This document shows, piece by piece, positions 13,811-36,679 of a DNA stretch of 41,393 nucleotides. Positions within the stretch are counted from its first letter, which is position 1; every line of letters starts with the position of its first letter. Position numbers and translations under genes: made by a program. The stretch lies in assembly GCA_022844525.1 (NCBI GenBank), contig JALHLO010000006.1:1-41393 (forward strand). The letters are read 5' to 3'. Source of the DNA: Ramlibacter sp. GTDB lineage: Bacteria; Pseudomonadota; Gammaproteobacteria; Burkholderiales; Burkholderiaceae_C. Under the pieces are notes generated by a model, which was not told the DNA's origin, searched no databases, and saw only the letters and a program-made list of their open reading frames with translations.

Positions 13811-13901
13811 GGAGCGGTGGCAGAGTGGTCGAATGCGCCGGACTCGAAATCCGGTATACGGTTTCACCGTATCGAGGGTTCGAATCCCTCCTGCTCCGCC
13901 A
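13811..13901 (+). tRNA. tRNA-Ser (anticodon CGA)
   Basis: A 91-nt class II tRNA with its CCA encoded (13899-13901). The acceptor GGAGCGG pairs with CTGCTCC, the anticodon loop CTCGAAA gives anticodon CGA (reads UCG), a long variable arm TACGGTTTCACCGTA is present, and the T loop is GGTTCGAATCC. Short ORFs crossing this region are spurious. Confidence 0.97.
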
Positions 13902-22337: not shown

Positions 22338-23255
22338 TCAGGCTTCGCCTGCGGTCCAGAAGATGTTGTCGACCTCGAAATCCGCCTCGTCCTGCACCAG
22401 GCTCACGACCGTGCGGATCAGAGGGCGGTCGTCGTCGCGCCGCCAGATCAGGTTGTAGGGCAGGCGCGGCATGGGCGGCTGGCTTTCGAGCGGGACGAGC
22501 AGCCCGCGGTCGAAGAGCGGCTGCACGTACCGGCGGGGCTGGAAGCTGATGCCGACGCCCGCGATGGTCAGCGCGATGATCGCCGCGCGGCTGTTGCACC
22601 GGATGGTCTTGGCCACCCGGATGCGGTTGGCCCGCGACCAGGTGTCGAAGGCCGCCGACAGGCCGGAGTCCTCGGGGTTGTTGATGACGGGATGCGCGGC
22701 GAACTGCTCGGGCGACAGCACCGTGCGCCGCCGCAGCCGCGACGGCGAACTGGTCCACACGAAGTCGATTTCCGCCACGCGCAGGCTCTGCACGTCCGGC
22801 GCTTGCACGGGGCCCGCGATGCTCGCCACGTCGAGCTCCCCGCGGGTGATCGCCGCTTCCAGCGGCCTGGACAAGGCCACCGTCGGTTCGAGCGCGACCT
22901 GCGGATAGCTCTGCTCGAGGCGCGCCGCGAAGGAGGGGAACCAGGTGGTCGCCGCCAGCTCGGTCAGCCCGAAGCGGCAGACGCCGCGCACTTCCTGCTC
23001 GCCCGCGGCCAGGCTGGAGCGGATCTCGCGCTCGAACTGCAGCATGGTGCCGGCCTTCTCCAGCAGGAGCTCCCCCGCGCCGGTGAGCGTCGGGCGCCGG
23101 CTGTTGCGGTCGAACAGCAGTTGCCCGAGGTCGGCCTCGAGCTCCGCGATGCGCTTGGAAAGCGAGGACTGCGTGACGTGCAGGCGGCGCGCCGCGATGG
23201 CGAAGGTTCCGAGCTTCGCCGCCCAGTAGAACGCTTCGAGTTGCTTCAGGGTCAT
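22338..23255 (-). CDS. LysR family transcriptional regulator
   Basis: A 305-residue LTTR. The winged HTH lies at 1-62 (MTLKQLEAFYWAAKLGTFAIAARRLHVTQSSLSKRI as pattern), followed by the effector-binding domain from about 90. It lies 44 nt after the CoA-transferase gene on the same strand, thus at the end of the leftward catabolic operon, unlike the more usual divergent LysR layout. It is the most likely local regulator of the divergent acyl-CoA operons. Its 3' end faces the XRE-cupin gene across about 60 bp. Confidence 0.95.
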   Translation of the reverse strand: MTLKQLEAFYWAAKLGTFAIAARRLHVTQSSLSKRIAELEADLGQLLFDRNSRRPTLTGAGELLLEKAGTMLQFEREIRSSLAAGEQEVRGVCRFGLTELAATTWFPSFAARLEQSYPQVALEPTVALSRPLEAAITRGELDVASIAGPVQAPDVQSLRVAEIDFVWTSSPSRLRRRTVLSPEQFAAHPVINNPEDSGLSAAFDTWSRANRIRVAKTIRCNSRAAIIALTIAGVGISFQPRRYVQPLFDRGLLVPLESQPPMPRLPYNLIWRRDDDRPLIRTVVSLVQDEADFEVDNIFWTAGEA

Positions 23256-23299
23256 GGACTGTCCAGGCGGGGCAGTCTACCCGAGCGACCCCGCGGGTT

Positions 23300-24529
23300 T
23301 CAGCCCGTGGCCGCCATTTCCACCGGCGACTGGACCACGCCGTCGCGCAGCAGGCCTTCGATCTCGGCGCTGGAGAAGCCCGCCTCCTCGAGCACCCCGA
23401 CGCTGTCTTCGCCCAGCCGCGGCGCGTGGTGGCGTACCTGGAAGGGCGCCGCGAACTGCACCGGGCTGCGCACGACGCGGTAGGCGCCCTCGGTCGGGTG
23501 CTGCTGCATGGGGAACATGCCCACGGCGAGGAGGTGCTCGTCGTGCAGCACCTCGTCGAGGCTCTTGACGGGCATGCACGGAATGCTCACGCCGTCGCAG
23601 AAGGCCTGCCATTGCGCGTTCGCGAACCGCGGCGCCTCCTCCTCCACCACCGAGTACAGCAGGTCGATGTGCTGCACCCGGTCCGCGAGCACGCGGAACC
23701 TGGGATCGCCGAGGAATTCGGTGCGGCCGGTGAAGCGGAAGAAATCCGCCCAGTTCGCGTCCGAGTAGGGAAGGATGCACATGTGGCCGTCGCGGGTGCG
23801 GAAGGGCTTGCGGTACTTGCTCAGCACGCGCTTGAAGCCGATCTCCCCCAGCGGGGGCTCGAAGGTGGCGCCGTGCAGGTGCTCGACGAGCGCGAATTCC
23901 GCGGCGGTCTCCAGCATGGGCACCTCGACGGCCTGGCCGCCGCCGCCCCGGGCCTGCTGCAGCAGGGCGGCCAGCACGGCGTAGGCGACCGTGTGGCCGG
24001 TGATCTTGTCGCACAGCACCGTGGGCGCGAACGCCGGCTCGCCGTGCACCATGGCATGCAGGCCCGCGAGCCCGGAGCCCGCCTGGATGACGTCGTCGTA
24101 GGCGGCCCGGCCCGAGTAGGGGCCGGCCGAGCCGAAACCGACGGCCGCGCAATAGACGATGTCCGGGTTGATGCTGCGCACGCCCTCGTAGCTCAGGCCG
24201 AGGCGGTCCGCGGCCTGCTGCCGCATGTTGTGGATGAAGCCGTGGGCGCCTGCCAGCAGCCGCTGGAGCACGGCCATCCCCTGCGGCGTCTTGAGGTCCA
24301 CCGAGATGCTGCGCTTGTTGCGGTTCAGGTTCAGGTAGTAACCCGCCATGCCTTCGTGCTTGAGCGGCTTGTAGTGGCGGGTCTGGTCCCCGGCGAGCGT
24401 CTCGACCTTGATCACGTCGGCGCCGAGGTCCGCCAGGATGCGGGTGGCATAGGGCCCGAGCACGACCGTCGTGAGGTCGACGATGCGGATGCCCTCCAGG
24501 GGGCCTTTCGCGAAGCGGCTGTTCGTCAT
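23300..24529 (-). CDS. CaiB/BaiF family CoA-transferase (class III)
   Basis: A 409-residue class III CoA-transferase that moves CoA between carboxylic acids through an aspartyl-CoA intermediate. Family blocks: EGIRIVDLTTVVLGPYATRILADLGADVIKVE at the N-terminus, LNLNRNKRSISVDLK at about 66-80, and the probable catalytic Asp D174 in VLCDKITGH. The start at 24529 has AAGGAC just upstream and is 11 nt from the dehydrogenase gene before it. No acyl-CoA ligase is found in the locus, so this enzyme is the likely activation step for the substrate acid. The CoA donor is unknown. Confidence 0.93.
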   Translation of the reverse strand: MTNSRFAKGPLEGIRIVDLTTVVLGPYATRILADLGADVIKVETLAGDQTRHYKPLKHEGMAGYYLNLNRNKRSISVDLKTPQGMAVLQRLLAGAHGFIHNMRQQAADRLGLSYEGVRSINPDIVYCAAVGFGSAGPYSGRAAYDDVIQAGSGLAGLHAMVHGEPAFAPTVLCDKITGHTVAYAVLAALLQQARGGGGQAVEVPMLETAAEFALVEHLHGATFEPPLGEIGFKRVLSKYRKPFRTRDGHMCILPYSDANWADFFRFTGRTEFLGDPRFRVLADRVQHIDLLYSVVEEEAPRFANAQWQAFCDGVSIPCMPVKSLDEVLHDEHLLAVGMFPMQQHPTEGAYRVVRSPVQFAAPFQVRHHAPRLGEDSVGVLEEAGFSSAEIEGLLRDGVVQSPVEMAATG

Positions 24530-24540
24530 GTCCTTGTTCC

Positions 24541-25632
24541 TCAGAGGCCGGCGATGCGCGGCCACAGGGTGCTGCCGGCGCAGCCGCACACCAGTTCGCC
24601 GATCCTGCGGCTCCAGAGCGATTCGGAGCCGAAGTCGTCGCGCCAGGCCCAGAGCCGCCGGGTGTGGTGGTGCAGCACGTGTTCCTGGGTGAAGCCGATG
24701 GCGCCGTGCACCTGGTGCACCAGCGCGCTCACCTTGCCCGCGGCTTCGCCGCAGCGCGCCTTGGCCGCCGCGATGCAGAACACGCTGTCTTCGTCCGCCT
24801 CCGGCCGCCAGTGTTCCAGCGCGAGTCCGGCCGCCGAGACGGACGCCGCCGTTTCGGCCGCGGCCTCCACGAGCATGTCCTGCACCGGCGCGAACCGTGC
24901 GATGGCCTTGCCGAACTGCGCGCGCTCGCCGGCGTACTGCAGGCCGAGTTCCAGGCAGCGTTGCATGCCGCCGACCATCTGCAGGCTGCGCAGCATCGCG
25001 CCGTGCGCCTGCAGCGCCAGCGGATGCCGCGGCTGCCAGCGGACCCGGCGCGCGGCCGGAACGAGGACTTCGTCCAGGCGCAGCGAGAACGCTGCCTCCA
25101 GGCCGGGGCCCGCGCAGCGCTCGCGCGGCAATCCATCGGTGTCCAGCAGGAGCAGCCAGTCCCCGCCGTCCGCGCCGCGCCCGTGCACCAGCAGCGATGC
25201 GGGAACGTCCGCGAAGGCGAGCGGTTCCGTCACGAGGCTGGCGGCCATCCCGCCGCGCATTTCGCGCAGTACCGCGGACGCCCCTTGCGCCTGGGACGCG
25301 AGCAGCACGGGGCGGTCCCCCGCCAGGTCCAGGTCGCCCCCGGCCCCCGCCCACAAGGCCTTGGCGACCATCGTGTCGCCCAGCGGCAGCGGCAGCGCGC
25401 GATAGCCGGCCAGGCGCACGATCTCGAAGGCATCGGCGGCGGCGAGGCCGACGCCTCCCTGCGCTTCCGGCACCAGCGCCAGCGACAGCGCGGATTCCTC
25501 CACGCTGCGCCAGAGTTCGCCGTTCCAGCGGCCCGCGCTCGCCGCCTCCAGCGCCTCGCGCGTCAGGAGCTCGCGGAACTGGCGGTCCGCCTGCTCGGAA
25601 ATGATGGAGGAGAAGCCGTCGTCGCGGTTCAT
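24541..25632 (-). CDS. Acyl-CoA dehydrogenase, second subunit type
   Basis: A 363-residue flavoprotein of the acyl-CoA dehydrogenase superfamily. The C-terminal domain is recognisable (YAGERAQFGKAIARFAPVQDMLV, VHQVHGAIGFTQEHVLHHHTRRL), but the N-terminal half is diverged and the C-terminus ends after RRLWAWRDDFG without an EGT-type catalytic Glu segment. Such subunits often form heteromers with a second dehydrogenase, as in FadE pairs for steroid side chains. The ATG overlaps the stop of the other dehydrogenase (ATGA), supporting equimolar synthesis. It probably supplies FAD-binding residues, not the catalytic base. Confidence 0.88.
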   Translation of the reverse strand: MNRDDGFSSIISEQADRQFRELLTREALEAASAGRWNGELWRSVEESALSLALVPEAQGGVGLAAADAFEIVRLAGYRALPLPLGDTMVAKALWAGAGGDLDLAGDRPVLLASQAQGASAVLREMRGGMAASLVTEPLAFADVPASLLVHGRGADGGDWLLLLDTDGLPRERCAGPGLEAAFSLRLDEVLVPAARRVRWQPRHPLALQAHGAMLRSLQMVGGMQRCLELGLQYAGERAQFGKAIARFAPVQDMLVEAAAETAASVSAAGLALEHWRPEADEDSVFCIAAAKARCGEAAGKVSALVHQVHGAIGFTQEHVLHHHTRRLWAWRDDFGSESLWSRRIGELVCGCAGSTLWPRIAGL

Positions 25633-26777
25633 CGCAGTCCCAGTCCACGGGCGATCACGCCGCGCAGGATTTCGCGCGTGCCACCGCGCAAGGTGAAGCT
25701 CGGCGCCGTCAGGGTGACCTGCCGCAGTGCCTCGTCGAAGCGGGTGGCGCCCGCGTCGCGGCCGTCGCCCCGGCCCACGAGCAGCCGCGCGATTTCGGGG
25801 ATCTCCCGTTCGAAACCGGTGCCGGCATGCTTGACCAGCGCCGCCTCGACCTGCGGATTGGCCCCCCGGTCCAGCAAGCCGGCGACGACGGTGGACATGC
25901 GGCGCAGCGCCATGGCGTGCGCCACCAGCCGGCCCACCTGCACCGACTGCAGGCGGTCCGGATCGCCTCCGACGCGGTCCACCAGGGCCGTGAGCAGCTG
26001 CCACGCGCTGAGGTAGCGGTCCGGGCCGCTGCGTTCGTAGGCCAGCTCCGCGGTCACCATGGCCCAGCCGCTGCCGGGTTCGCCCACCAGCATGTCGTCG
26101 GGGACGAAGTAGTCCTCGAAATGCACCTCGTTGAACTCGTGGTGCCCCGACAGGTCGAGGATCGGCCGCACCGTGATGCCGGGCGCATCGGTGGGCGTGA
26201 TCATCTGGGTCAGCCCCTCGTGCTTCTTCTCGCCCGCAGGCGAGGTGCGCACGAGGGTGATCAGGTAGTCGACCTGGTGCGCATTGGTGGTCCACACCTT
26301 GGTGCCGTTCAGGCGCCAGCCGCCCTCGACCTTCTCCGCCCGCGTGCGCACGGCCGCGAGGTCGGAGCCGGAGTCGGGCTCGCTCATGCCGATGCCGAAG
26401 GCGCACTCGCCCCGGACGATGCGCGGCAGGATCTCCCGCTTCGCCCGCTCGGAGCCGTGCTTCAGGATCTGCGGGCCGGACTGCCGGTCGGCGATCCAGT
26501 GCGCCCCGCACGGCGCGCCCGCGGCCAGCATCTCCTCGACCACCACGTAGCGCTCGAGCGCGGAAGCCTCCCCGCCGCCGAACGCGCGCGGCCAGGTCAT
26601 GCCGATGAATCCCGCCTCGCCGGCACGGCGGCTGAACGCGCGGTCGAAGGTGGTCCAGGTGACCTGCCAGGGCTTGAAGGTCCCGCGCGCCAGCTCCGCG
26701 GCAAGGAACTCCCGCACGCGGCGGCGGGTGCCGTCGTAGACCGACAGGTCGGCCGGCTGCTCGTTGAAATTGTTCAT
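25629..26777 (-). CDS. Acyl-CoA dehydrogenase, catalytic subunit type
   Basis: A 382-residue acyl-CoA dehydrogenase. The FAD/substrate motif is GIGMSEPDSGSDLAAVRT, and the middle beta-domain holds GGWRLNGTKVWTTNAHQVDY. At the usual catalytic position the YEGT motif reads RGGTRE, so the base is not there. A glutamate in ELAYERSGPDR fits the alternative helix-G position used by isovaleryl-CoA dehydrogenase and by the alpha subunits of heteromeric FadE enzymes. It therefore likely forms a heterotetramer with the next, overlapping gene product. The substrate is probably branched or cyclic. It starts 10 nt after the crotonase stop. Confidence 0.92.
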   Translation of the reverse strand: MNNFNEQPADLSVYDGTRRRVREFLAAELARGTFKPWQVTWTTFDRAFSRRAGEAGFIGMTWPRAFGGGEASALERYVVVEEMLAAGAPCGAHWIADRQSGPQILKHGSERAKREILPRIVRGECAFGIGMSEPDSGSDLAAVRTRAEKVEGGWRLNGTKVWTTNAHQVDYLITLVRTSPAGEKKHEGLTQMITPTDAPGITVRPILDLSGHHEFNEVHFEDYFVPDDMLVGEPGSGWAMVTAELAYERSGPDRYLSAWQLLTALVDRVGGDPDRLQSVQVGRLVAHAMALRRMSTVVAGLLDRGANPQVEAALVKHAGTGFEREIPEIARLLVGRGDGRDAGATRFDEALRQVTLTAPSFTLRGGTREILRGVIARGLGLR

Positions 26778-26787
26778 GCGCCTGCCT

Positions 26788-27588
26788 TCAGCGGCCCGTG
26801 AACGACGGCTTGCGCTTCTCGAGGAAGGCGAGCACCGCCTCGTCGTGGTCCTGCGTGTAGTGCGCGAGCGCCTGGTAGGCCGCGGCCATCTCCAGGGAGG
26901 TCGCGAGTGACATGTGGTCGCTTTCGCGCAGCAGGCGCTTGGTCAGGCGCACGGTGCGCGCCGGGTTGGCGGCCATGCGCTGCGCGAGACCCAGGGCCTC
27001 GGGCATCAGCGACTCGTGCGGCACCACGCGCGAGACCAGGCCGAGCTCGAGCGCGCGCGCCGCATCGAAGGTGTCGCCGGTGAGCATGAGCTCCATCGCC
27101 TTGGGCTGGCCGATGGTGCGGGCCAGCAGCCACGCGCCGCCGTCGCCGGGCACGATCCCGAGCTTGACGAAGCTGCTGGCGAAGCTCGCCCGCTCCGACG
27201 CGATCCGGATGTCGCACATGCACGTGAGGTCCATGCCCGCGCCGATGGCCGGACCGTTGACGGCCGCGATCGTGGGCACGTCGAGCTCGTACAGCGCCAG
27301 CGGGATCTGCTGGATGCCGTTGCGGTAGGCGTCGCGGATGTCCGCAGGCGAGCCGGCGGAGAAGCCCTTCTTGTCGCGCATGTTCTTCAGGTTGCCGCCC
27401 GCGGAGAAGGCCGAGCCGGCGCCGGTGAGCACCAGGGCCTTGACGCTGCGGTCCCGGCGCACGCGCGCGCAGAGTTCGACGAACTCCAACATCTGGTGCT
27501 CCTCCGTCATCGCGTTGCGCTCGTCCGGGCGGTTCATCGTCACCACCGCCACGCCTTCCGACTGTTCGTACAGAAGAAACCCACTCAT
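26788..27588 (-). CDS. Enoyl-CoA hydratase/isomerase (crotonase) family protein
   Basis: A 266-residue crotonase-fold protein. Oxyanion-hole segments are normal (GSAFSAGGNLKNM and AAVNGPAIGAGMDLT). The two glutamates of classical hydratases are absent: the first site reads GAGMDLT (Asp) and the second reads SSFVKLGIVPGDGG, with a hydrophobic residue where QPE normally lies. It is therefore more likely an isomerase, hydrolase or other crotonase than a plain hydratase. AGGAG precedes the ATG at 27588; an upstream in-frame ATG at 27654 lies inside the operator region and is rejected. First gene of the leftward operon. Confidence 0.9.
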   Translation of the reverse strand: MSGFLLYEQSEGVAVVTMNRPDERNAMTEEHQMLEFVELCARVRRDRSVKALVLTGAGSAFSAGGNLKNMRDKKGFSAGSPADIRDAYRNGIQQIPLALYELDVPTIAAVNGPAIGAGMDLTCMCDIRIASERASFASSFVKLGIVPGDGGAWLLARTIGQPKAMELMLTGDTFDAARALELGLVSRVVPHESLMPEALGLAQRMAANPARTVRLTKRLLRESDHMSLATSLEMAAAYQALAHYTQDHDEAVLAFLEKRKPSFTGR

Positions 27589-27827
27589 GCGAAGCTCCTG
27601 GTCCTGGAATGAGCCGGCAGTGTAGGCAGCGCCGCCGCCGGCGGAAAGCGACATTTCCGCATCGGCTCGCAGTCGCTTTTGGAATCGGAGGCGGCGCGCG
27701 CAGTGATCGAAAAAAGGACTGGCCGGGGGTGAATAAATGTCGCTTTGCCGCGCGCCCGAACGGCCTCACCATTGCCGCCGTTCGAAGCACACCGAAGGAG
27801 ACACCCGGCGACACCGGGCGCGACTGC
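27589..27827. promoter_or_regulatory. Divergent promoter region with three operator-like elements
   Basis: The spacer between the two catabolic operons. Site A (27641-27660) is a palindrome with 7-bp arms GCGGAAA and TTTCCGC around GCGACA. Its core AAAGCGACATTT recurs as an exact reverse complement, AAATGTCGCTTT, at 27735-27746 (site B). A shorter copy, GTCGCTTT, is at 27672-27679 (site C). A lies 53 bp upstream of the crotonase ATG and B 82 bp upstream of the rightward dehydrogenase ATG. One regulator could thus control both operons. No consensus sigma70 or sigma54 pair stands out. Confidence 0.6.
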
Positions 27828-28997
27828 ATGGACTTCCAGATCCCGGACGACCTGCGCGAGCTGCAGGAACGCACCCGCCGCTTCATCGCCGACGAGATCC
27901 TGCCGCTGGAGGGCGAAGTGCCGCGCGACGCGCACGGCCCCTCCGAGGAGCTGCGGCGCGAACTGGTCGCACGCGCGCGGGCCGCCGGCCTGCTGACGCC
28001 GCACGCTTCGCGCGGGATGGGCGGGCTGGGGCTCAGCCACGTCGGCAAGGCGGTCGTCTTCGAGGAGGCGGGCTACTCCTGGCTCGGGCCGACGGCGCTG
28101 AACATCCACGCGCCCGACGAGGGCAACATCCACCTCATGGAGGAAGTCGCCACCAGCGCGCAGAAGGAGCGCTGGCTGCGTCCGCAGGTGGCCGGCCGCA
28201 CGCGCTCCTGCTTCGCCATGACGGAGCCGGACGGCGCCGGCGCGGACCCGTCGATGCTGCGGACCACCGCCGTGCGCGACGGCGGCGACTACGTGATCAA
28301 CGGCCGCAAGTGGTTCATCACCGGCGCCGAAGGGGCGGACTACGCGATCGTGATGGCGCGCATGGAGGATGGCTCCTCCACCATGTTCCTCACCGACATG
28401 GACCGGCCGGGCATCCGCCTGGAGCGCAACATGCACGCCATGGATGCCTGCTTCACCGGCGGCCACGGCGTGCTGGCATTCGAGGACCTGCGGGTGCCGG
28501 CCGCCGACGTGCTGGGCGAGGTGGGGCAGGGCTTTCGCTACGCGCAGGTGCGGCTGGCGCCGGCGCGCCTGACGCACTGCATGCGCTGGCTGGGCCAGGC
28601 GCGCCGCGCGCACGACCTGGCGCTGGCCTACGCCAGCCGGCGCAACGCCTTCGGCAAGCCGCTCGCGGAGCACGAAGGCGTGGGCTTCATGCTCGCCGAC
28701 AACGACATCGACCTGCACACCGCGCGGCTGCACATCTGGCACACCGCGTGGCTGCTGGATCGTGGCGACAAGGGCGGCTACGAGTCGAGCCGCGCGAAGG
28801 TGGCCTGCTCGGAAGCGCAATGGCGCGTGGTGGACCGCTGCGTGCAGATCCTGGGGGGCCAGGGCGTGACCGCGGAGACGCCGGTCATGCGCATCTTCAT
28901 GGACATGCGCGCCTTCCGCATCTACGACGGCCCGAGCGAGGTGCACCGCTGGAGCATGGCGCGCAAGCTGGTGCGCCGGGAAGGTGCACCGGCATGA
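27828..28997 (+). CDS. ACAD10/11-like acyl-CoA dehydrogenase
   Basis: A 389-residue acyl-CoA dehydrogenase-fold protein close to the ACAD10/ACAD11 C-terminal domain. Markers: SCFAMTEPDGAGADPSML, INGRKWFITGAEGADY, RLAPARLTHCMRWLG (ACAD11 has a very similar RIHHCMR segment) and IYDGPSEVHRWSMAR near the end, where the usual YEGT glutamate is replaced by D367. In ACAD10/11 and LvaC this fold works on 4-phosphoacyl-CoA made by a kinase, eliminating phosphate instead of only dehydrogenating. The kinase gene lies two genes downstream. ATG at 27828 is the start giving the family N-terminus (MDFQIPDDLRELQERTR). Overlaps the SDR gene (ATGA). Confidence 0.9.
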   Translation: MDFQIPDDLRELQERTRRFIADEILPLEGEVPRDAHGPSEELRRELVARARAAGLLTPHASRGMGGLGLSHVGKAVVFEEAGYSWLGPTALNIHAPDEGNIHLMEEVATSAQKERWLRPQVAGRTRSCFAMTEPDGAGADPSMLRTTAVRDGGDYVINGRKWFITGAEGADYAIVMARMEDGSSTMFLTDMDRPGIRLERNMHAMDACFTGGHGVLAFEDLRVPAADVLGEVGQGFRYAQVRLAPARLTHCMRWLGQARRAHDLALAYASRRNAFGKPLAEHEGVGFMLADNDIDLHTARLHIWHTAWLLDRGDKGGYESSRAKVACSEAQWRVVDRCVQILGGQGVTAETPVMRIFMDMRAFRIYDGPSEVHRWSMARKLVRREGAPA

Positions 28998-29764
28998 AGT
29001 CCATGCCGAGCTTCAGCCTCGAGGGCAAGGTGGCCCTCGTCACGGGCGCCTCCAGCGGCCTGGGCGCGCATTTCGCCGAACTGCTCGCCGCCGCCGGCGC
29101 GCGGGTGGTCGCCGCCGCGCGCCGCGCCGATGCGCTCGACACGCTCGTCGGCCGCATCCGGGATGCGGGCGGCGAGGCCCGGTCGGCACAGCTCGACGTG
29201 ACGGATGCCGCGAGCGTGCGCGCGTGCCTGGACGCGGTGTGCGCCTGGGGCGCGCCGCAGGTGCTGGTGAACAATGCCGGCGTGACCGTGACCCGTCCGC
29301 TGCTGGAGCAGACCGTCGAGGATTTCGAGCAGGTGGTCGACACCAACCTGAAGGGCTGCTGGCTGGTGGCCACCGAGGCGGCGCGCCGCATGGTGCAGGC
29401 GGGAAGCGGCGGCGCCATCGTGAATGTCGCGTCCATCCTGGGCGAGCGCGTGGCCGGCGGAGTCGCGCCCTATGCCATTTCCAAGGCGGGCGTGATCCAG
29501 GCCACGAAAGCGATGGCGCTCGAACTCGCGCGCCACCGCATCCGCGTCAACGCGCTGCTTCCAGGCTACATCGTGACGGACCTGAACCGCGAGTTCCTGC
29601 GCAGCGAGGCCGGCGAGAAGCTGCGCGCGCGCATCCCGAGCCGGCGCTTCGGCGAGCTGCGGGACCTGGACGGGCCGCTGTTGCTGCTGGCTTCGGACGC
29701 CGGCAGCGCAATGTCCGGTGCCTGCGTCGCCGTCGACGGCGCCCACCTCGTGAGTTCGCTGTGA
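28994..29764 (+). CDS. Short-chain dehydrogenase/reductase
   Basis: A 256-residue classical SDR. The cofactor motif TGASSGLG is at 17-24, NNAG at 93-96, and the catalytic S147, Y160 and K164 (YAISK) are all present. It probably oxidises a hydroxyacyl-CoA to the ketoacyl-CoA with NAD(P)+. It lies between the ACAD11-like dehydrogenase and the kinase with 4-bp overlaps on both sides (ATGA and GTGA), so the three proteins are made together and should act in one pathway. The exact substrate is unknown. Confidence 0.93.
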   Translation: MKSMPSFSLEGKVALVTGASSGLGAHFAELLAAAGARVVAAARRADALDTLVGRIRDAGGEARSAQLDVTDAASVRACLDAVCAWGAPQVLVNNAGVTVTRPLLEQTVEDFEQVVDTNLKGCWLVATEAARRMVQAGSGGAIVNVASILGERVAGGVAPYAISKAGVIQATKAMALELARHRIRVNALLPGYIVTDLNREFLRSEAGEKLRARIPSRRFGELRDLDGPLLLLASDAGSAMSGACVAVDGAHLVSSL

Positions 29765-30780
29765 GCGGCGGCCTGGACCCGGCCGTCCTCGGAGCCTGGC
29801 TGCGCGAGCGCGGCCTGGCCGGGGCCGGCGTGCCCAGGGTCGAGGCGCTGGCGGGCGGCCAGTCGAATCCCACCTACCGCGTCCGCACGGAAGGGGGCGA
29901 CTTCGTGCTGCGCAAGCGCCCGCCGGGACAGCTGCTGCCCTCCGCGCACGCGATCGATCGCGAGTACCGGGTGATGCAGGCCCTGGCAGGCAGCGATGTC
30001 CCGGTGCCGGGGATGGTGGCCTGGTGCTCCGACGCGTCGGTCACCGGGACCGAGTTCTACCTGATGGAGTTCCTCGACGGCCGGGTCTTCGCGGATCCTG
30101 CGCTGCCGGGGGCCGATCCCGCGCAGCGCGCCGCCATCTACCGCGAGATGAACCGGGTGATCGCGCGCCTGCATTCGGTGGACGTGCAGGCCGCGGGGCT
30201 CGCTTCGTTCGGCCGCCCCGGGCACTACGTGGCGCGGCAGGTCTCGCGCTGGGTGGAGCAGTGCCGGAAGGCCACCTTGCCGCTGCCCGCGGCGATGCGC
30301 GAGCTGATGGACTGGCTGCCGGCCCACCTGCCGGCGGAGTCGGCGCAGCGGCTCGTGCACGGCGACTTCCGCATCGACAACCTCGTCTTCCATCCGACCG
30401 AAGCGCGCGTGATCGGCGTGCTGGACTGGGAACTGTCCACGCTCGGCGATCCGCTCGCGGACTTCTCCTACCACTGCATGGCCTGGCGCGTCGCGCCCGC
30501 CCTGTGGCGCGGCATCGGCGGGCTGGACCTCGCCGCCTTCGGGATCCCGGGCGAGGAGGAATACGTCCGCGCCTATGCGCAAGCGACCGGGCTGGCGATC
30601 GCGCACTGGGACTTCTACATGGCCTACAACCTGTTCCGCATGGCGGCGATCCTGCACGGCATCGCGCAGCGCGCCGCGCAAGGCAACGCTGCGGCGGCCG
30701 ATGCGGCGCAAGTCGGCGCCAGGGCGGGCCCGCTCGCCGACCTCGCGCTCGCGGTCGCATTGCGTCCGGCTGCCGCCTGA
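29761..30780 (+). CDS. ACAD11-like kinase (APH family phosphotransferase)
   Basis: A 339-residue kinase-fold protein of the APH family. It resembles the N-terminal kinase domain of human ACAD11 throughout: GGQSNPTYRV, FVLRKRPPGQLLPSAHAIDREY, CSDASVTGTEFYLMEF, then the Brenner-type motif VHGDFRIDN (200-207, catalytic D202) and the metal site LDWELSTLGDPL (D222). It is not an antibiotic resistance gene. Known relatives (LvaA with LvaB, ACAD10/11) phosphorylate the 4-hydroxyl of 4-hydroxyacyl-CoA. The GTG start at 29761 overlaps the SDR stop. The next gene, a Bug receptor, follows after 50 nt. Confidence 0.9.
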   Translation: MSGGLDPAVLGAWLRERGLAGAGVPRVEALAGGQSNPTYRVRTEGGDFVLRKRPPGQLLPSAHAIDREYRVMQALAGSDVPVPGMVAWCSDASVTGTEFYLMEFLDGRVFADPALPGADPAQRAAIYREMNRVIARLHSVDVQAAGLASFGRPGHYVARQVSRWVEQCRKATLPLPAAMRELMDWLPAHLPAESAQRLVHGDFRIDNLVFHPTEARVIGVLDWELSTLGDPLADFSYHCMAWRVAPALWRGIGGLDLAAFGIPGEEEYVRAYAQATGLAIAHWDFYMAYNLFRMAAILHGIAQRAAQGNAAAADAAQVGARAGPLADLALAVALRPAAA

Positions 30781-30830
30781 GACCGCCCTGATCCACAGCA
30801 GTTCACCCCCATCACACAAAGGAGACAAGA

Positions 30831-31805
30831 ATGCGTTTTGACCTGAGACAGACCCTCCACGCCGGCGTAGCCGCGCTCGCCCTGACCGCCGGCTCCCTGG
30901 CGCACGCGGCCTGGCCGTCGGATGCGCCGATCAACGTCACCGTGGGCTTCGCGCCCGGCGGCAGCACCGACGTGATGGTCCGCACGCTGGCGCCCTTCAT
31001 CGCGAAGCACCTGGGGGACAACGCTTCCCTGGTGATCCAGAACCGCCCCGGTGCCTCCGGCGAACTCGCCATCAACAGCGTGATGCGCGCGAAACCGGAC
31101 GGGTACTCGCTGGTCATCGTGAATCTGCCCGGCTACTTCTTCGTGCCGATGTACCGCAAGTCCTCCTATACGACCAGGGACCTCACGCTGCTCGCGCGCG
31201 TGGTGAGCGACCCCACCATCATGGTGACACGCAAGGACGGCAAGCTGTCCGACTTGAAGCAGGTGCTCGCCGCGCTGAAGGCGGCACCGGGGTCGATCTC
31301 CGCCGGGCACAACGGCCTGGGCACCAACGGGCACCTCGCGATGGCCCGACTCGAGGGCGCCGCGGGCGTGAAGTTCAATGCCATCCCCTACAACGGCACG
31401 GCTCAGCAAAAGACCGCCCTGGCCAGCAGCACGCTGGACATCGCCTACCTGGCCGCCTCGGAGGTTCCCGATCCGGAGAACGAGGCGACGCCCGTGCGCC
31501 TGCTGGCCCAGTTCACCAAGGAGAAGGTGCAGCGCATCGCCGGCGTGCCCAGCACCTTTGAACTGGGACTCCCGGTGGAGATGACGGCGGAGCGCGGCTT
31601 CGCGGCACCGAACGGCGTTCCCGCGCCCGTCCTCGCCCGGCTGGAAAGAGCGATCCAGGCGGCGATGAAGGATCCCGAGTACCTGAAGGCGGCACGCAAC
31701 GACGCACCGTTCCTGTCGTTCCTGGGCGGGGCGGACTGGACGCGCCAGATCGAGCAGGATATCCGCGCCTACGAAGCGATCGCGCGCACGCTGCCGAAGG
31801 AGTGA
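30831..31805 (+). CDS. Bug/TctC family tripartite tricarboxylate receptor
   Basis: A 324-residue periplasmic binding protein of the Bug family. Signal peptide 1-26 (cut after AHA), then INVTVGFAPGGSTDVMVR and VIQNRPGASGELAINSVMRAKPDGYSL, both typical. Bug proteins bind carboxylates in a Venus-flytrap fold; the membrane partners TctA and TctB are absent here, as is usual for the many orphan Bug genes of Burkholderiales. AAAGGAG stands 6 nt before the ATG. Its place at the end of the kinase operon suggests it binds or senses the carboxylic acid that the operon degrades. Confidence 0.94.
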   Translation: MRFDLRQTLHAGVAALALTAGSLAHAAWPSDAPINVTVGFAPGGSTDVMVRTLAPFIAKHLGDNASLVIQNRPGASGELAINSVMRAKPDGYSLVIVNLPGYFFVPMYRKSSYTTRDLTLLARVVSDPTIMVTRKDGKLSDLKQVLAALKAAPGSISAGHNGLGTNGHLAMARLEGAAGVKFNAIPYNGTAQQKTALASSTLDIAYLAASEVPDPENEATPVRLLAQFTKEKVQRIAGVPSTFELGLPVEMTAERGFAAPNGVPAPVLARLERAIQAAMKDPEYLKAARNDAPFLSFLGGADWTRQIEQDIRAYEAIARTLPKE

Positions 31806-32386: not shown

Positions 32387-33517
32387 CTACCCAAGACTTT
32401 GCTGGAAGAAGGCTCCCAGCCGGTCGAACGGGATCTTCTTCCTGTCGTCGTACAGGTCGACGTGGTCGGCATCCGGAACGATCACCAGCTCCTTCGGGCC
32501 GCTCGCCGCCTTGTACACGTCTTCCGAGTAGTAGCGCGAGTGCGCATTCGCACCGTGCACGAGCATGATCGGGCGCGGCGCGATCATGTCGATGTTCGCC
32601 GCCATCGGGAACTCGAAGAAGGACATCGGCGTCGTGGCCGTCCACGCCGACGCGGAGTTGATCGACCGGGCGTGGAAGCCGCGGGGCGTGCGGTAGTAAT
32701 CGAAGAACGCCGCCAGCACCGGGTCCGCATCGGCCGGCAGTTTCTCGGGCAGCACGCGGGTGCCCTTGACGATCTGTCCGTCCTTGCCGAACGGGACTTC
32801 GTGATAGCCGACCGCGTAGCTCCCCTTTTCGGCGTCCGCCCAGCGCTGCCGGCCCAGGTAGTCGATCACCTTGTGCCTTTGCTCCTTCGTGTAGCCGTCC
32901 TTGTAGCCGCGGCTGATGCTGCGCGACATGTCGTACATCGAGGACGTCGCCACGGCCTTGATCCGGGAGTCGCCGCTGGCCGCCGTCAGCGCCATGCCGC
33001 TCAGGCCGCAGATGCCGATGGCACCGATGCGTTGGCGATCGACGTCACGAAGCAGGCCGACGTAGTCGACGGCGGCGCTGAAGTCCTCGGTGAACATTTC
33101 GGGCGAGGCCACGTTGCGCACCTCGCCTGCGCTTTCGCCGGTGAAGGACGGGTCGAACGCCAGGGTGACGAAGCCCCGCTCGGCGAGCGTCTGGGCATAG
33201 AGGCCGGACACCTGCTCCTTGACCGCGCCGAACGGGCCGCTGAGCACCAGGGCCGGCAGCTTCTCGCCGGCGCGGCCCTTCGGACGGTACAGGTCGGCCG
33301 CCAGGGTGATGCCGAACCGGTTGCTGAACGCCACCTTCCGGTGGTCCACCTGTTTGCTTTGCGGAAAGGTCTTGTCCCAACGGGGGGTCATCGCGGTCTT
33401 CCTGTTCGAGGAGCCCTGCGGATGGGCCGCGGCAGCGGGCGCGCCGACCAGGGGTGCGCTTCCCAGGGCCAGGCCGGCTTGCAGCGTCCTGCGGCGCGAG
33501 AGGTCCGGGTTCGTCAT
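32387..33517 (-). CDS. Tat-exported alpha/beta hydrolase (dienelactone-hydrolase-like)
   Basis: A 376-residue hydrolase. The N-terminus has a twin-arginine signal (SRRRTLQAGLALGS) with a cut around residue 30. The alpha/beta core follows: LVLSGPFGAVKEQ, FDPSFTGESAG, and a nucleophile elbow GICGLSG at 168-174. The elbow places C170 where serine usually lies, as in YcjY-like and dienelactone hydrolases, though S173 is close by. The catalytic His is probably in PDADHVDLYDD. The start at 33517 has AAGGAG 8 nt upstream; the reading frame continues upstream but that part is antisense to the LysR gene. Divergent from LysR, co-directional with the cyclophilin-like gene. Confidence 0.88.
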   Translation of the reverse strand: MTNPDLSRRRTLQAGLALGSAPLVGAPAAAAHPQGSSNRKTAMTPRWDKTFPQSKQVDHRKVAFSNRFGITLAADLYRPKGRAGEKLPALVLSGPFGAVKEQVSGLYAQTLAERGFVTLAFDPSFTGESAGEVRNVASPEMFTEDFSAAVDYVGLLRDVDRQRIGAIGICGLSGMALTAASGDSRIKAVATSSMYDMSRSISRGYKDGYTKEQRHKVIDYLGRQRWADAEKGSYAVGYHEVPFGKDGQIVKGTRVLPEKLPADADPVLAAFFDYYRTPRGFHARSINSASAWTATTPMSFFEFPMAANIDMIAPRPIMLVHGANAHSRYYSEDVYKAASGPKELVIVPDADHVDLYDDRKKIPFDRLGAFFQQSLG

Positions 33518-33574
33518 GTGTTTTCTCCTTCGTTGCTGGCCGCCAGTGTGCCGGCGGCTCACGCGCGCGACTAG

Positions 33575-33595
33575 ATAATGAATCCTGATTGGATC
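33575..33595. promoter_or_regulatory. Hydrolase/LysR divergent control site
   Basis: A -10-like GATAAT (33575-33580) next to an inverted repeat ATCC-TGATT-GGAT (33583-33595), in the 112-bp spacer between the hydrolase and its divergent LysR gene. This fits a LysR binding site but is short. Confidence 0.35.
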
Positions 33596-33629
33596 CAGTA
33601 GCCAGGCTGATGAATGGAGGAGCAGGCGA

Positions 33630-34523
33630 ATGGCCAGGAGGAACCTGAACGAATTGCTGGGCTTCGTGACGGTCGCGCGCGAAGGCAGTTTCACGCGGGC
33701 GGCGGCGAGTCTGGGCGTCACGCAATCGGCCCTGAGCCAGTCCATCCGCGGGCTGGAGGAGCGCCTGCAGATCCGCCTGCTGACGCGCACGACGCGAAGC
33801 GTGTCCACCACCGAGGCCGGCGAGCGGCTGATGCGCGCGATCGGGCACCGCTTCGACGACATCGAGTCCGAACTGGAGGCACTGACCGCGCTGAGGGACA
33901 AGCCCGCAGGCACGGTGCGCATCACCTGCGGCGATCATGTGCTCGAGAGCGTGCTGCTGCCCCGGCTCACGCCCTTGTTGCTGGACTACCCCGACATCAC
34001 GGTGGAGTTCGACATGAACTACGGCTTCCGCGACATCGTGGCCGACCGCTTCGACGCCGGCGTGCGCATGGGCAACACGATAGACAAGGACATGATCGCT
34101 GTTGCCATCGGGCCGCCGCTGCGCATGGCGGTGGTCGCATCACCCGCCTATTTCGCTGCGAACCCGCCACCGAAGGTGCCCCAGGACCTCACGGCTCACC
34201 GCTGCATCAACCAACGGATGCCGACCTCCGGCGGGCTCTACGTCTGGGACTTCGAGCGGCGCGGGCGCAAGGTGAACGTGCGCGTCGACGGCCAGCTCAT
34301 CTTCAATACCTCGCCGCCGCAGGTGGACGCCGCGCTGGCCGGCCTGGGCATCGTCTTGCTGCCGGAGGACGAACTGATGCCCGAGATCACGGCCGGGCGG
34401 CTGGTGCGCGTGCTGGACGACTGGTGCCCGAAGTTCGCCGGCTACCACTTGTACTACCCGAGCAGGCGGCAGCCTTCGCCGGCGTTCTCCCTGGTCGTCG
34501 AAGCCTTGCGCTTTCGCGCGTGA
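33630..34523 (+). CDS. LysR family transcriptional regulator
   Basis: A 297-residue LTTR with the HTH at about 5-62 (LLGFVTVAREGSFTRAAASLGVTQSALSQSIR pattern) and a C-terminal substrate-binding-like domain (RFDAGVRMGNTIDKDM, GLGIVLLPEDEL). It resembles the DsdC/PecT-like LysR group frequent in Burkholderiales. GGAGGAG lies 8 nt upstream of the ATG. The divergent Tat-exported hydrolase operon is its probable target. Confidence 0.95.
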   Translation: MARRNLNELLGFVTVAREGSFTRAAASLGVTQSALSQSIRGLEERLQIRLLTRTTRSVSTTEAGERLMRAIGHRFDDIESELEALTALRDKPAGTVRITCGDHVLESVLLPRLTPLLLDYPDITVEFDMNYGFRDIVADRFDAGVRMGNTIDKDMIAVAIGPPLRMAVVASPAYFAANPPPKVPQDLTAHRCINQRMPTSGGLYVWDFERRGRKVNVRVDGQLIFNTSPPQVDAALAGLGIVLLPEDELMPEITAGRLVRVLDDWCPKFAGYHLYYPSRRQPSPAFSLVVEALRFRA

Positions 34524-34724: not shown

Positions 34725-36470
<1,746 letters not shown>

Positions 36471-36679
36471 CGGCGGATTATTCCTCCTTGATGCCGGCCA
36501 GGTCCGGGCGATCGCGGAGGGCGACGCCCGATCGGCCAGCCGCTTGATGCGGGTGCACATCGCCGCTGCGGCTCGTGACGGTGGCGGCGCCGTCGTACCT
36601 GCGCGCGCACGGCCGCCTTGCTCGCGGGCCTGGGCGTGTCGCAGCACGACGTGCGGTCGTGAGCACCGTCGGCGGCGGG

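Follow-up and report, generated by a model that had tools for sequence, protein, structure and literature searches.

Phosphorylation followed by elimination is a published route that fits 4-hydroxy acids to β-oxidation; bacteria have been shown to use it on levulinate, and mammals on 4-hydroxy lipids. In the levulinate pathway, the SDR oxidoreductase LvaD reduces levulinyl-CoA, according to PMC6692424. The same paper describes a levulinate cluster 2 in Pseudomonas citronellolis that also comprises a kinase, a dehydrogenase and an SDR, with no lvaB homologue reported there; its kinase shares 59% identity with LvaA and is therefore of the LvaA type. In animals, the kinase and dehydrogenase are fused in ACAD10 and ACAD11, and a bacterial ACAD10/11-type pair from Burkholderia is active, as stated in PMC11342911.

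We analysed a window of 41,393 nucleotides of a Ramlibacter genome (the whole contig stretch considered here) in which three adjacent genes encode the same three kinds of enzyme as the lva operon, as separate proteins. Judging from sequence, these genes probably constitute an Lva-type module (lvaC-lvaD plus a kinase) that would feed a 4-oxo or 4-hydroxy acid into β-oxidation. The relevant features of the window are the following:

22338..23255, minus strand: LysR-type regulator, at one end of the conserved island
23300..24529, minus strand: family III CoA-transferase (CaiB/BaiF)
24541..25632, minus strand: small acyl-CoA dehydrogenase subunit, matching among others, though weakly, the partner chain in 6wy8/6wy9 and 4x28
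25629..26777, minus strand: large acyl-CoA dehydrogenase subunit of heteromeric type, matching one chain of 6wy8/6wy9 and 4x28
26788..27588, minus strand: crotonase-family enoyl-CoA hydratase/isomerase
27589..27827, no strand: divergent promoter region, the gap between the crotonase and dehydrogenase genes
27645..27656, plus strand: operator-like 12-mer AAAGCGACATTT, copy 1
27735..27746, minus strand: operator-like 12-mer AAAGCGACATTT, copy 2, inverted
27828..28997, plus strand: LvaC-type FAD-dependent acyl-CoA dehydrogenase, predicted to eliminate phosphate (R242, R247, H250-C251-M252-R253, D367)
28994..29764, plus strand: LvaD-like SDR oxidoreductase (motifs TGASSGLG, NNAG, NVAS, YAISK), with an ATGA overlap with the dehydrogenase gene
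29761..30780, plus strand: APH-fold, putative acyl-CoA kinase of the ACAD10/11 type (HGDFRIDN, DWE), with a GTGA overlap with the SDR gene
30831..31805, plus strand: TctC-family periplasmic solute-binding protein, final gene of the conserved island

The frames of the dehydrogenase (389 aa), the SDR (256 aa) and the kinase (339 aa, GTG start) are open at these coordinates, and each stop shares its bases with the next start (ATGA at 28994, GTGA at 29761), in agreement with a first-pass annotation that had described an overlapping three-gene unit at 27828-30780. Pfam assigned them acyl-CoA dehydrogenase domains, adh_short (170 bits) and APH (191 bits), respectively. The divergent CoA-transferase and heteromeric dehydrogenase pair signalled by the same annotation is also real, and a second Ramlibacter has this block conserved alongside the unit; the crotonase had gone unnamed.

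The dehydrogenase possesses the expected ACAD10/11 markers LTHCMR and YDGPSEVH, with Asp (D367) in the column of the catalytic Glu. Its R242, H250, R253 and D367 correspond to Arg626, His634, Arg637 (HCMR helix) and the catalytic Asp753 of ACAD11, whose roles in phosphate binding and catalysis are given in section 7 of PMC12440821. The complete signature R-R-H-C-M-R-D occurred in all 122 LvaC-type rows (113 distinct sequences) and all 13 ACAD10/11-type rows (one of them, from contig C199 of the same genome, counted twice), and in none of 19 other rows. Another ACAD of the genome (L091) has Asp in the catalytic-Glu column without HCMR, so that Asp alone is not diagnostic of the phosphate-eliminating class. 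In a tree built without animal ACAD10 and ACAD11 sequences, LvaC-type and ACAD10/11-type rows occupied one side of a branch (100/99), opposite 13 rows (12 distinct) representing other ACADs of the same genome. In an earlier version that contained both heteromeric subunits, the small one fell inside the LvaC-type group with a branch length of 8.2, which we took as a long-branch artefact; this subunit and five further long rows are absent from the tree described. Placement among ordinary FadE enzymes, which the first-pass annotation had named as the outcome that would speak against its reading, was thus not what we found, since the dehydrogenase groups in the phosphate-eliminating ACAD10/11/LvaC clade.

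Within this clade, the dehydrogenase is 70% identical to those of lva-like operons and 34% identical to the ACAD10/11-type enzyme of its own genome. By comparison with the lva-like operons used as reference, it is a member of the LvaC-type branch. Its earlier description as ACAD10/11-like holds for the joint clade and the residues, but not for membership of the ACAD10/11 type proper. The reference operons were Azotobacter and Stutzerimonas plasmid operons, LvaA, LvaC and LvaD of P. putida KT2440 not being among the compared sequences. The Stutzerimonas operon (prpR-kinase-DUF6285-histidine phosphatase-ACAD-SDR-acyl-CoA synthetase-DUF485-symporter), whose ACAD shows the 70% identity, has a composition fitting the lva gene kinds given in PMC6692424. 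With human ACAD11, the window enzyme shares 37% identity (62% similarity); PMC11342911 reports that the dehydrogenase domain of ACAD10 is 62% identical to LvaC and that of ACAD11 56%, which is at odds with our figure unless these values represent similarity.

The SDR had been regarded as inserted between the kinase and the dehydrogenase. This idea of a novel or foreign insertion must be abandoned because the levulinate pathway has its own SDR, LvaD, and the window SDR shares 59–61% identity with those encoded in lva-like operons. From these comparators, operons of other bacteria rather than KT2440 LvaD itself, its sequence is that of an LvaD-type enzyme. A different role, in which the substrate is a 4-hydroxy acid or γ-lactone and the SDR follows the dehydrogenase, serving as a 3-hydroxyacyl-CoA dehydrogenase instead of a 4-oxo reductase, seems unlikely to us. 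FabG-type models are among those matching the SDR, all below their cut-offs, and 10 of 80 close relatives keep ACAD and kinase without an SDR in the run, so that the SDR is not always needed; the identity to lva-like SDRs and the reaction reported for LvaD nevertheless argue for the 4-oxo reductase.

The kinase carries the HGDFRIDN and DWELS motifs that had been claimed for it, and its attribution to the ACAD10/11 type was borne out by its PDB relatives (3dxp, 393 bits; mouse ACAD11, 246 bits), by 52–53% identity to the ACAD10/11-type kinase of the same genome and by kinase trees, likewise built without animal sequences, which split LvaA-type from ACAD10/11-type kinases at 100/99-100/100. An aminoglycoside resistance kinase was discarded, the best APH resistance model scoring 41 bits against a cut-off of 205. 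We give almost no credence to an ordinary FadE standing by chance beside an aminoglycoside-type kinase: the broad Pfam names are all that favours it, and it is contradicted by the tree and signature residues, which rule out an ordinary FadE, as well as by the identities and the ACAD11 and 3dxp kinase matches.

In contrast with the lva operon, the window kinase is not LvaA-type (27–29% identity to LvaA-type kinases of lva-like operons), and DUF6285 (PF19802), which is probably the LvaB partner protein, was not found in the genome (92% complete). Because of these two observations and the higher identity to the ACAD10/11-type kinase, it is an ACAD10/11-type kinase that appears here beside the LvaC and LvaD types, in the place of LvaA plus LvaB. 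The LvaA-type kinase likewise distinguishes P. citronellolis cluster 2, as does its histidine phosphatase, not seen in the Ramlibacter island. The genome's own ACAD10/11-type pair on contig C199 has a related kinase, but its dehydrogenase is distant and no window-like SDR lies beside it in the 4 kb of its locus (L002). The divergence of both window enzymes from this pair (52–53% and 34% identity) would fit a kinase and dehydrogenase acting at another position or on another acyl thioester, with only the phosphorylate-then-eliminate logic in common; we consider this very improbable, as the positions defined for the phosphate of 4-phosphoacyl-CoA were invariant in the rows examined.

A kinase tree without outgroups nested the kinases that belong to ACAD10/11-type pairs inside the others. 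When outgroups were included, 32 of 34 kinases adjoining LvaC-type dehydrogenases formed one clade (100/98), and the tree did not settle the position of L152 and L153, which implies one or two kinase recruitments. Of 80 close relatives, 22 had the ACAD-SDR-kinase order, as did 11 of 30 family loci (sets with overlapping genomes). The dehydrogenase often stands alone, as 47 of the 80 relatives had no kinase in its gene run, although this number includes nine on contigs ending within 2.5 kb and one (L046) with a kinase 541 bases away. Altogether, the LvaC-type dehydrogenases of relatives are adjoined by one of three kinase types or by none, and the window suggests a natural recombination of the two halves of this chemistry.

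The genomic setting also departs from the lva operon. The region 22345-31805 is colinear (82%) with R. ginsenosidimutans, nothing else matching across the 21 kb that were compared, and defines in these two Ramlibacter genomes a 9.5 kb island, from lysR to tctC, where the unit lies between tctC and a divergent promoter in which a 12-mer is repeated. Among the island genes, Pfam and NCBIfam searches revealed neither an acyl-CoA synthetase (LvaE) nor a symporter nor a sigma-54 regulator (LvaR); the island instead includes genes for the CaiB transferase, for TctC and LysR and for a ChsE-like heteromeric dehydrogenase. Solved members of the ChsE-like heteromeric dehydrogenases act on bulky side chains. 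Plain catabolism of levulinate or 4-hydroxyvalerate, the C5 substrate of the P. putida lva operon, with the heteromeric cassette handling the next rounds or something else, is in our opinion rather unlikely: the identities of the dehydrogenase and SDR favour it, as does the description of levulinate as the substrate of LvaC and LvaD in PMC6692424, but the island's gene content, in both what it lacks and what it carries, speaks against it. A more far-reaching reading, to which we give somewhat less than even odds, is a hybrid origin: an LvaC/LvaD pair would have exchanged LvaA and LvaB for a partner-free ACAD10/11-type kinase and later become lodged within the promoter of a cassette that LysR controls and that encodes the CoA-transferase and the heteromeric dehydrogenase, being dedicated to a bulky or branched 4-oxo or 4-hydroxy acid and not to levulinate.

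The divergent block might alternatively be an unrelated neighbour. Among the loci examined, it occurs whole beside the unit in only one other genome, R. ginsenosidimutans, and a third genome (G146) has the cassette without the unit next to it. Against this improbable interpretation stand the colinearity of the island, the location of the unit between tctC and a promoter motif shared by island and cassette, and the only other one of 299 genomes with a close (84%) large subunit, which also has the unit, on another contig. As an operator, the inverted 12-mer pair is weak evidence by itself: an exact inverted pair arose in 37 of 5000 simulations, and when the window was shuffled 100 times, 12 of the shuffled sequences gave two matches with ≤2 mismatches.

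In the Lva-type module proposed above, the acid would be taken up with the help of TctC and receive CoA from the CaiB protein, as their families suggest. Acting like LvaD, the SDR would reduce the resulting 4-oxoacyl-CoA at its oxo group, giving 4-hydroxyacyl-CoA, and the kinase, by analogy with ACAD10/11 and LvaA and with its catalytic residues present, would phosphorylate the 4-hydroxyl at the expense of ATP. In the dehydrogenase, D367 and FAD may transiently open the α/β bond, with R242, H250 and R253 binding the phosphate and letting it go, to yield 2-enoyl-CoA with no net oxidation; the crotonase and the heteromeric dehydrogenase could continue β-oxidation. The position of the unit between the divergent promoter and tctC makes a single regulator for all steps possible. 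The new hydroxy-acid pathway suggested by the first-pass annotation is possible; its chemistry is known, and what looks new here is confined to the pairing of the kinase and the genetic setting. Among the open-access papers retrieved, no title or abstract opening described this pairing or this island. If the hybrid origin is true, kinase and dehydrogenase would prove to be freely exchangeable modules. The recombination suggested by the window allows specific questions: whether a single kinase can supply two dehydrogenases, whether only LvaA-type kinases need LvaB and which acid the Ramlibacter island degrades. Burkholderiales genes now labelled 'phosphotransferase' or 'acyl-CoA dehydrogenase' would also gain a sharper annotation.

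The structure model of the dehydrogenase had a mean pLDDT of 83.6, dropping below 50 in the stretch 368-375 next to the catalytic Asp. Its best Foldseek matches were 4hr3 and ACAD11 (also its PDB relatives by sequence, with 222 bits and, for human ACAD11, 203 bits), with equally high TM-scores to ordinary ACADs; this is consistent with the sequence-based class, but not independent of sequence. In the kinase, D, N and R occupy the columns of the catalytic Asp220, Asn225 and Arg176 of ACAD11. As for Arg86, described for ACAD11 beside the alpha-C Glu, position 86 falls on Phe in the numbering used here, and a DRE Arg-Glu pair lies nearby in both proteins.

All three genes of the dehydrogenase-SDR-kinase unit lie where the first-pass annotation had located them, in three different frames joined by 4-base overlaps. 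Their surroundings are as follows:

22338-23255 (-), LysR regulator
23300-24529 (-), family III CoA-transferase
24541-25632 (-), dehydrogenase, small subunit
25629-26777 (-), dehydrogenase, large subunit
26788-27588 (-), crotonase, diverging from the unit
27828-28997 (+), acyl-CoA dehydrogenase (ACAD)
28994-29764 (+), SDR, overlapping the dehydrogenase gene by 4 bases (ATGA)
29761-30780 (+), APH-type kinase, overlapping the SDR gene by 4 bases (GTGA)
30831-31805 (+), tctC, after the kinase gene

The large subunit on the minus strand has one chain of 6wy8/6wy9 and 4x28 high among its PDB matches (128 bits) and the small subunit has the other chain among its matches, weakly (31-36 bits); since these are two different chains, a heteromeric type is a fair reading.

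The dehydrogenase of the unit shares 70% identity with dehydrogenases on plasmids of Azotobacter and Stutzerimonas, against only 34% with the ACAD10/11-type enzyme encoded on contig C199 of its own genome. The Stutzerimonas locus has the order prpR, kinase, DUF6285, histidine phosphatase, dehydrogenase, SDR, acyl-CoA synthetase, DUF485 and acetate symporter, and a study on levulinate catabolism lists the same kinds of genes for the lva operon (PMC6692424). From this match and the 70% identity we name the branch of the window enzyme LvaC-type, a putative assignment made via lva-like operons of other bacteria. DUF6285 appears to occupy the place of the 12-kDa LvaB in the Stutzerimonas locus, and presumably the lva gene order and transporter genes match this locus as well. 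The identities of ACAD10 and ACAD11 to LvaC given in another study (62% and 56%; PMC11342911) do not fit well with the 37% identity (62% similarity, over 316 residues) between the window enzyme and human ACAD11.

According to PMC12440821, mouse ACAD11 holds the 4-phosphate with R626, H634 and R637, uses D753 as catalytic base and has in R631 a residue general to the family; in our alignment, the corresponding residues of the window dehydrogenase are R242, H250, R253, D367 and R247. The full RRHCMRD pattern occurs in 122/122 rows of its branch (113 different sequences, with double entries for the window and some genomes) and in 13/13 ACAD10/11-type rows (C199 entered twice). It is absent from all 19 other ACAD rows, 17 of them from ACAD matches in the same genome and two from the heteromeric subunits; three of the 22 ACAD places in this genome are not represented, namely L085 (its match contains a stop), L102 (again the large subunit) and L103. 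As a diagnostic by itself, the Asp was dropped because one acyl-CoA dehydrogenase of this genome (L091, contig C96, 3765-4889) has it in the catalytic column without HCMR or the rest of the signature. A maximum-likelihood tree built from 63 rows, after six long ones had been removed, contains a branch (100/99) with the window branch and the ACAD10/11-type branch together on one side and 13 rows (12 distinct) from other ACADs of this genome on the other. The enzyme is thus placed, as first proposed, outside the ordinary FadE enzymes; a position among them would have refuted the initial proposal. The structure model has an ACAD fold, with 4hr3 and ACAD11 as best matches, and cannot by itself separate the enzyme from ordinary ACADs.

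The SDR had been regarded as an insertion between dehydrogenase and kinase, a view that does not hold, since the Lva set has its own SDR. LvaD is described as an oxidoreductase listed as an SDR that converts levulinyl-CoA to 4-hydroxyvaleryl-CoA (PMC6692424). The window SDR carries the usual SDR motifs; it shares 72-73% identity with the SDRs of Massilia and Azoarcus and 59-61% with those from the operons of Azotobacter and Stutzerimonas, and is therefore best read as a putative 4-oxo reductase.

It is in the kinase that the unit differs from the lva operon. The window kinase is only 27-29% identical to those of the Azoarcus, Azotobacter, Stutzerimonas, Massilia and Thermus loci; with the C199 kinase, a member of an ACAD10/11-type pair, it shares 52-53% identity, and the kinase types split in trees at 100/99 to 100/100, which bears out the ACAD10/11-type assignment made initially. 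The catalytic Asp220, Asn225 and Arg176 of ACAD11 have counterparts in the alignment, where none was matched to Arg86. DUF6285 was not found in the window's genome (384 contigs, 92% complete, 5.4% contamination). In a tree with outgroup kinases, a single clade (100/98) unites 32/34 kinases adjoining LvaC-type dehydrogenases. Of the seven outgroup kinases, four (L174, L175, L176, L178) adjoin ACAD10/11-type dehydrogenases, L173 has one 2.9 kb off, and L172 and L177 have none within their stretches. Read most simply, an LvaC/LvaD pair would have recruited a kinase of the ACAD10/11 type, in one or two events. A kinase of a third type lies beside the LvaC-type dehydrogenase in Cupriavidus oxalaticus and another compared genome (G013, L179), and probably also in Rhizorhabdus, whose annotation calls the gene hypothetical.

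Among the best 80 of 516 dehydrogenase relatives (named genomes), 22 have dehydrogenase-SDR-kinase in the window's order, 10 dehydrogenase-kinase but lack an SDR in the run, one SDR-dehydrogenase-kinase, and 47 no kinase in the run; for nine of these the contig stops within 2.5 kb, and one (L046) has a kinase 541 bases on. An LvaC-type dehydrogenase occurs at E <= 1e-150 in 32/250 genomes of the family and at E <= 1e-140 in 11/399 of the order, the window's own included in both. The family loci, whose genomes overlap with those of the 80 relatives (30 of 31 foreign loci fetched), comprise 11/30 with SDR and ACAD10/11-type kinase, 1/30 with this kinase alone, 2/30 with SDR, LvaA-type kinase and DUF6285, and 16/30 without a kinase. 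Whole-genome searches of 24 of the 47 kinase-less relatives found an ACAD10/11-type kinase elsewhere in 24/24; it adjoins its own ACAD10/11-type dehydrogenase in 11/12 loci given, and one kinase might serve two dehydrogenases in those genomes. The LvaA-type kinase was found in eleven loci, all with DUF6285 alongside and the dehydrogenase nearest to the window's; as nine were reached through the dehydrogenase, the independent test consists of the two found by kinase search (2/370 genomes), whose dehydrogenases share 42-43% identity with that of the window and contain HCMR, the Asp motif being matched by pattern in one only.

Some loci deserve separate mention. Limnohabitans (L006 9905-12057, L012 10001-12101 and others) keeps an LvaC-type dehydrogenase 83-87% identical, phosphate-binding residues included, with no window-like SDR or kinase next to it; by eye, the next gene resembles pyrF (orotidine-5'-phosphate decarboxylase) in the two loci inspected at ORF level. 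A record named Pantoea sp. 18069 (L060) has the whole unit, with identities of 82/82/65% to that of the window, and its kinase groups with Comamonadaceae kinases; the name may be wrong. A histidine phosphatase gene recurs in the lva-like clusters of Azoarcus, Stutzerimonas and Thermus (L118 9381-10058, L120 5243-6004, L125 8475-9128), as in P. citronellolis, and the window's island has none.

From lysR to tctC, 22345-31805 aligns with R. ginsenosidimutans as a single block at 82% identity, with no second match in the 21-kb stretch compared; the CoA-transferase and heteromeric dehydrogenase genes noted at the outset as divergent are confirmed on the other strand within it. In another genome (G146, contig C36), tctC (81%) stands back to back with crotonase-large-small-CoA-transferase-lysR (86, 83, 53, 78, 68%) and the dehydrogenase-SDR-kinase genes are on a separate contig (C97). 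By comparison with this cassette, the Ramlibacter unit lies between the divergent promoter and tctC. A 12-mer occurs in this promoter region as two identical copies in inverted orientation (27645 and 27735). R. ginsenosidimutans keeps the pair, one copy differing by a single mismatch; in G146, three sites between tctC and crotonase match the 12-mer with one, two and two mismatches, and 17/17 other relatives checked have none with up to two mismatches in the 400 bases upstream of the dehydrogenase. Since exact inverted pairs arose by chance in 37/5000 simulations, and 12/100 whole-window shuffles yielded a pair of matches when up to two mismatches were allowed, this conservation weighs more than the copy count.

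The unit is real, well conserved and chemically intelligible from known enzymes. Starting from the gene order, homology, signature residues, kinase type and conserved island observed here, we infer its reactions and substrate from sequence: TctC would take up an acid, to which the CoA-transferase would add CoA; the SDR would reduce the 4-oxo group and the kinase phosphorylate the 4-hydroxyl; the FAD dehydrogenase would then expel the phosphate to give a 2-enoyl-CoA, with crotonase and heteromeric dehydrogenase serving later beta-oxidation rounds. What looks new is the hybrid pairing of LvaC/LvaD with an ACAD10/11-type kinase and its apparent capture by another catabolic cassette; among the titles and abstract openings listed in searches of an open-access library, none dealt with either.

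Beyond the conserved island, 32387-33820 (-) encodes an alpha/beta hydrolase that, judged by eye, begins with a twin-Arg-like stretch and that matches a lactonase model weakly (58 bits against a cut-off of 400); lactonase activity would fit a 4-hydroxy-acid pathway. A large ORF at 34725-36491 (-) resembles by eye an IlvD/Edd-type sugar-acid dehydratase, and a nearby one (33630-34523) a LysR gene. The sole tRNA gene in the window according to ARAGORN is a tRNA-Ser (CGA) at 13811-13901 (+).
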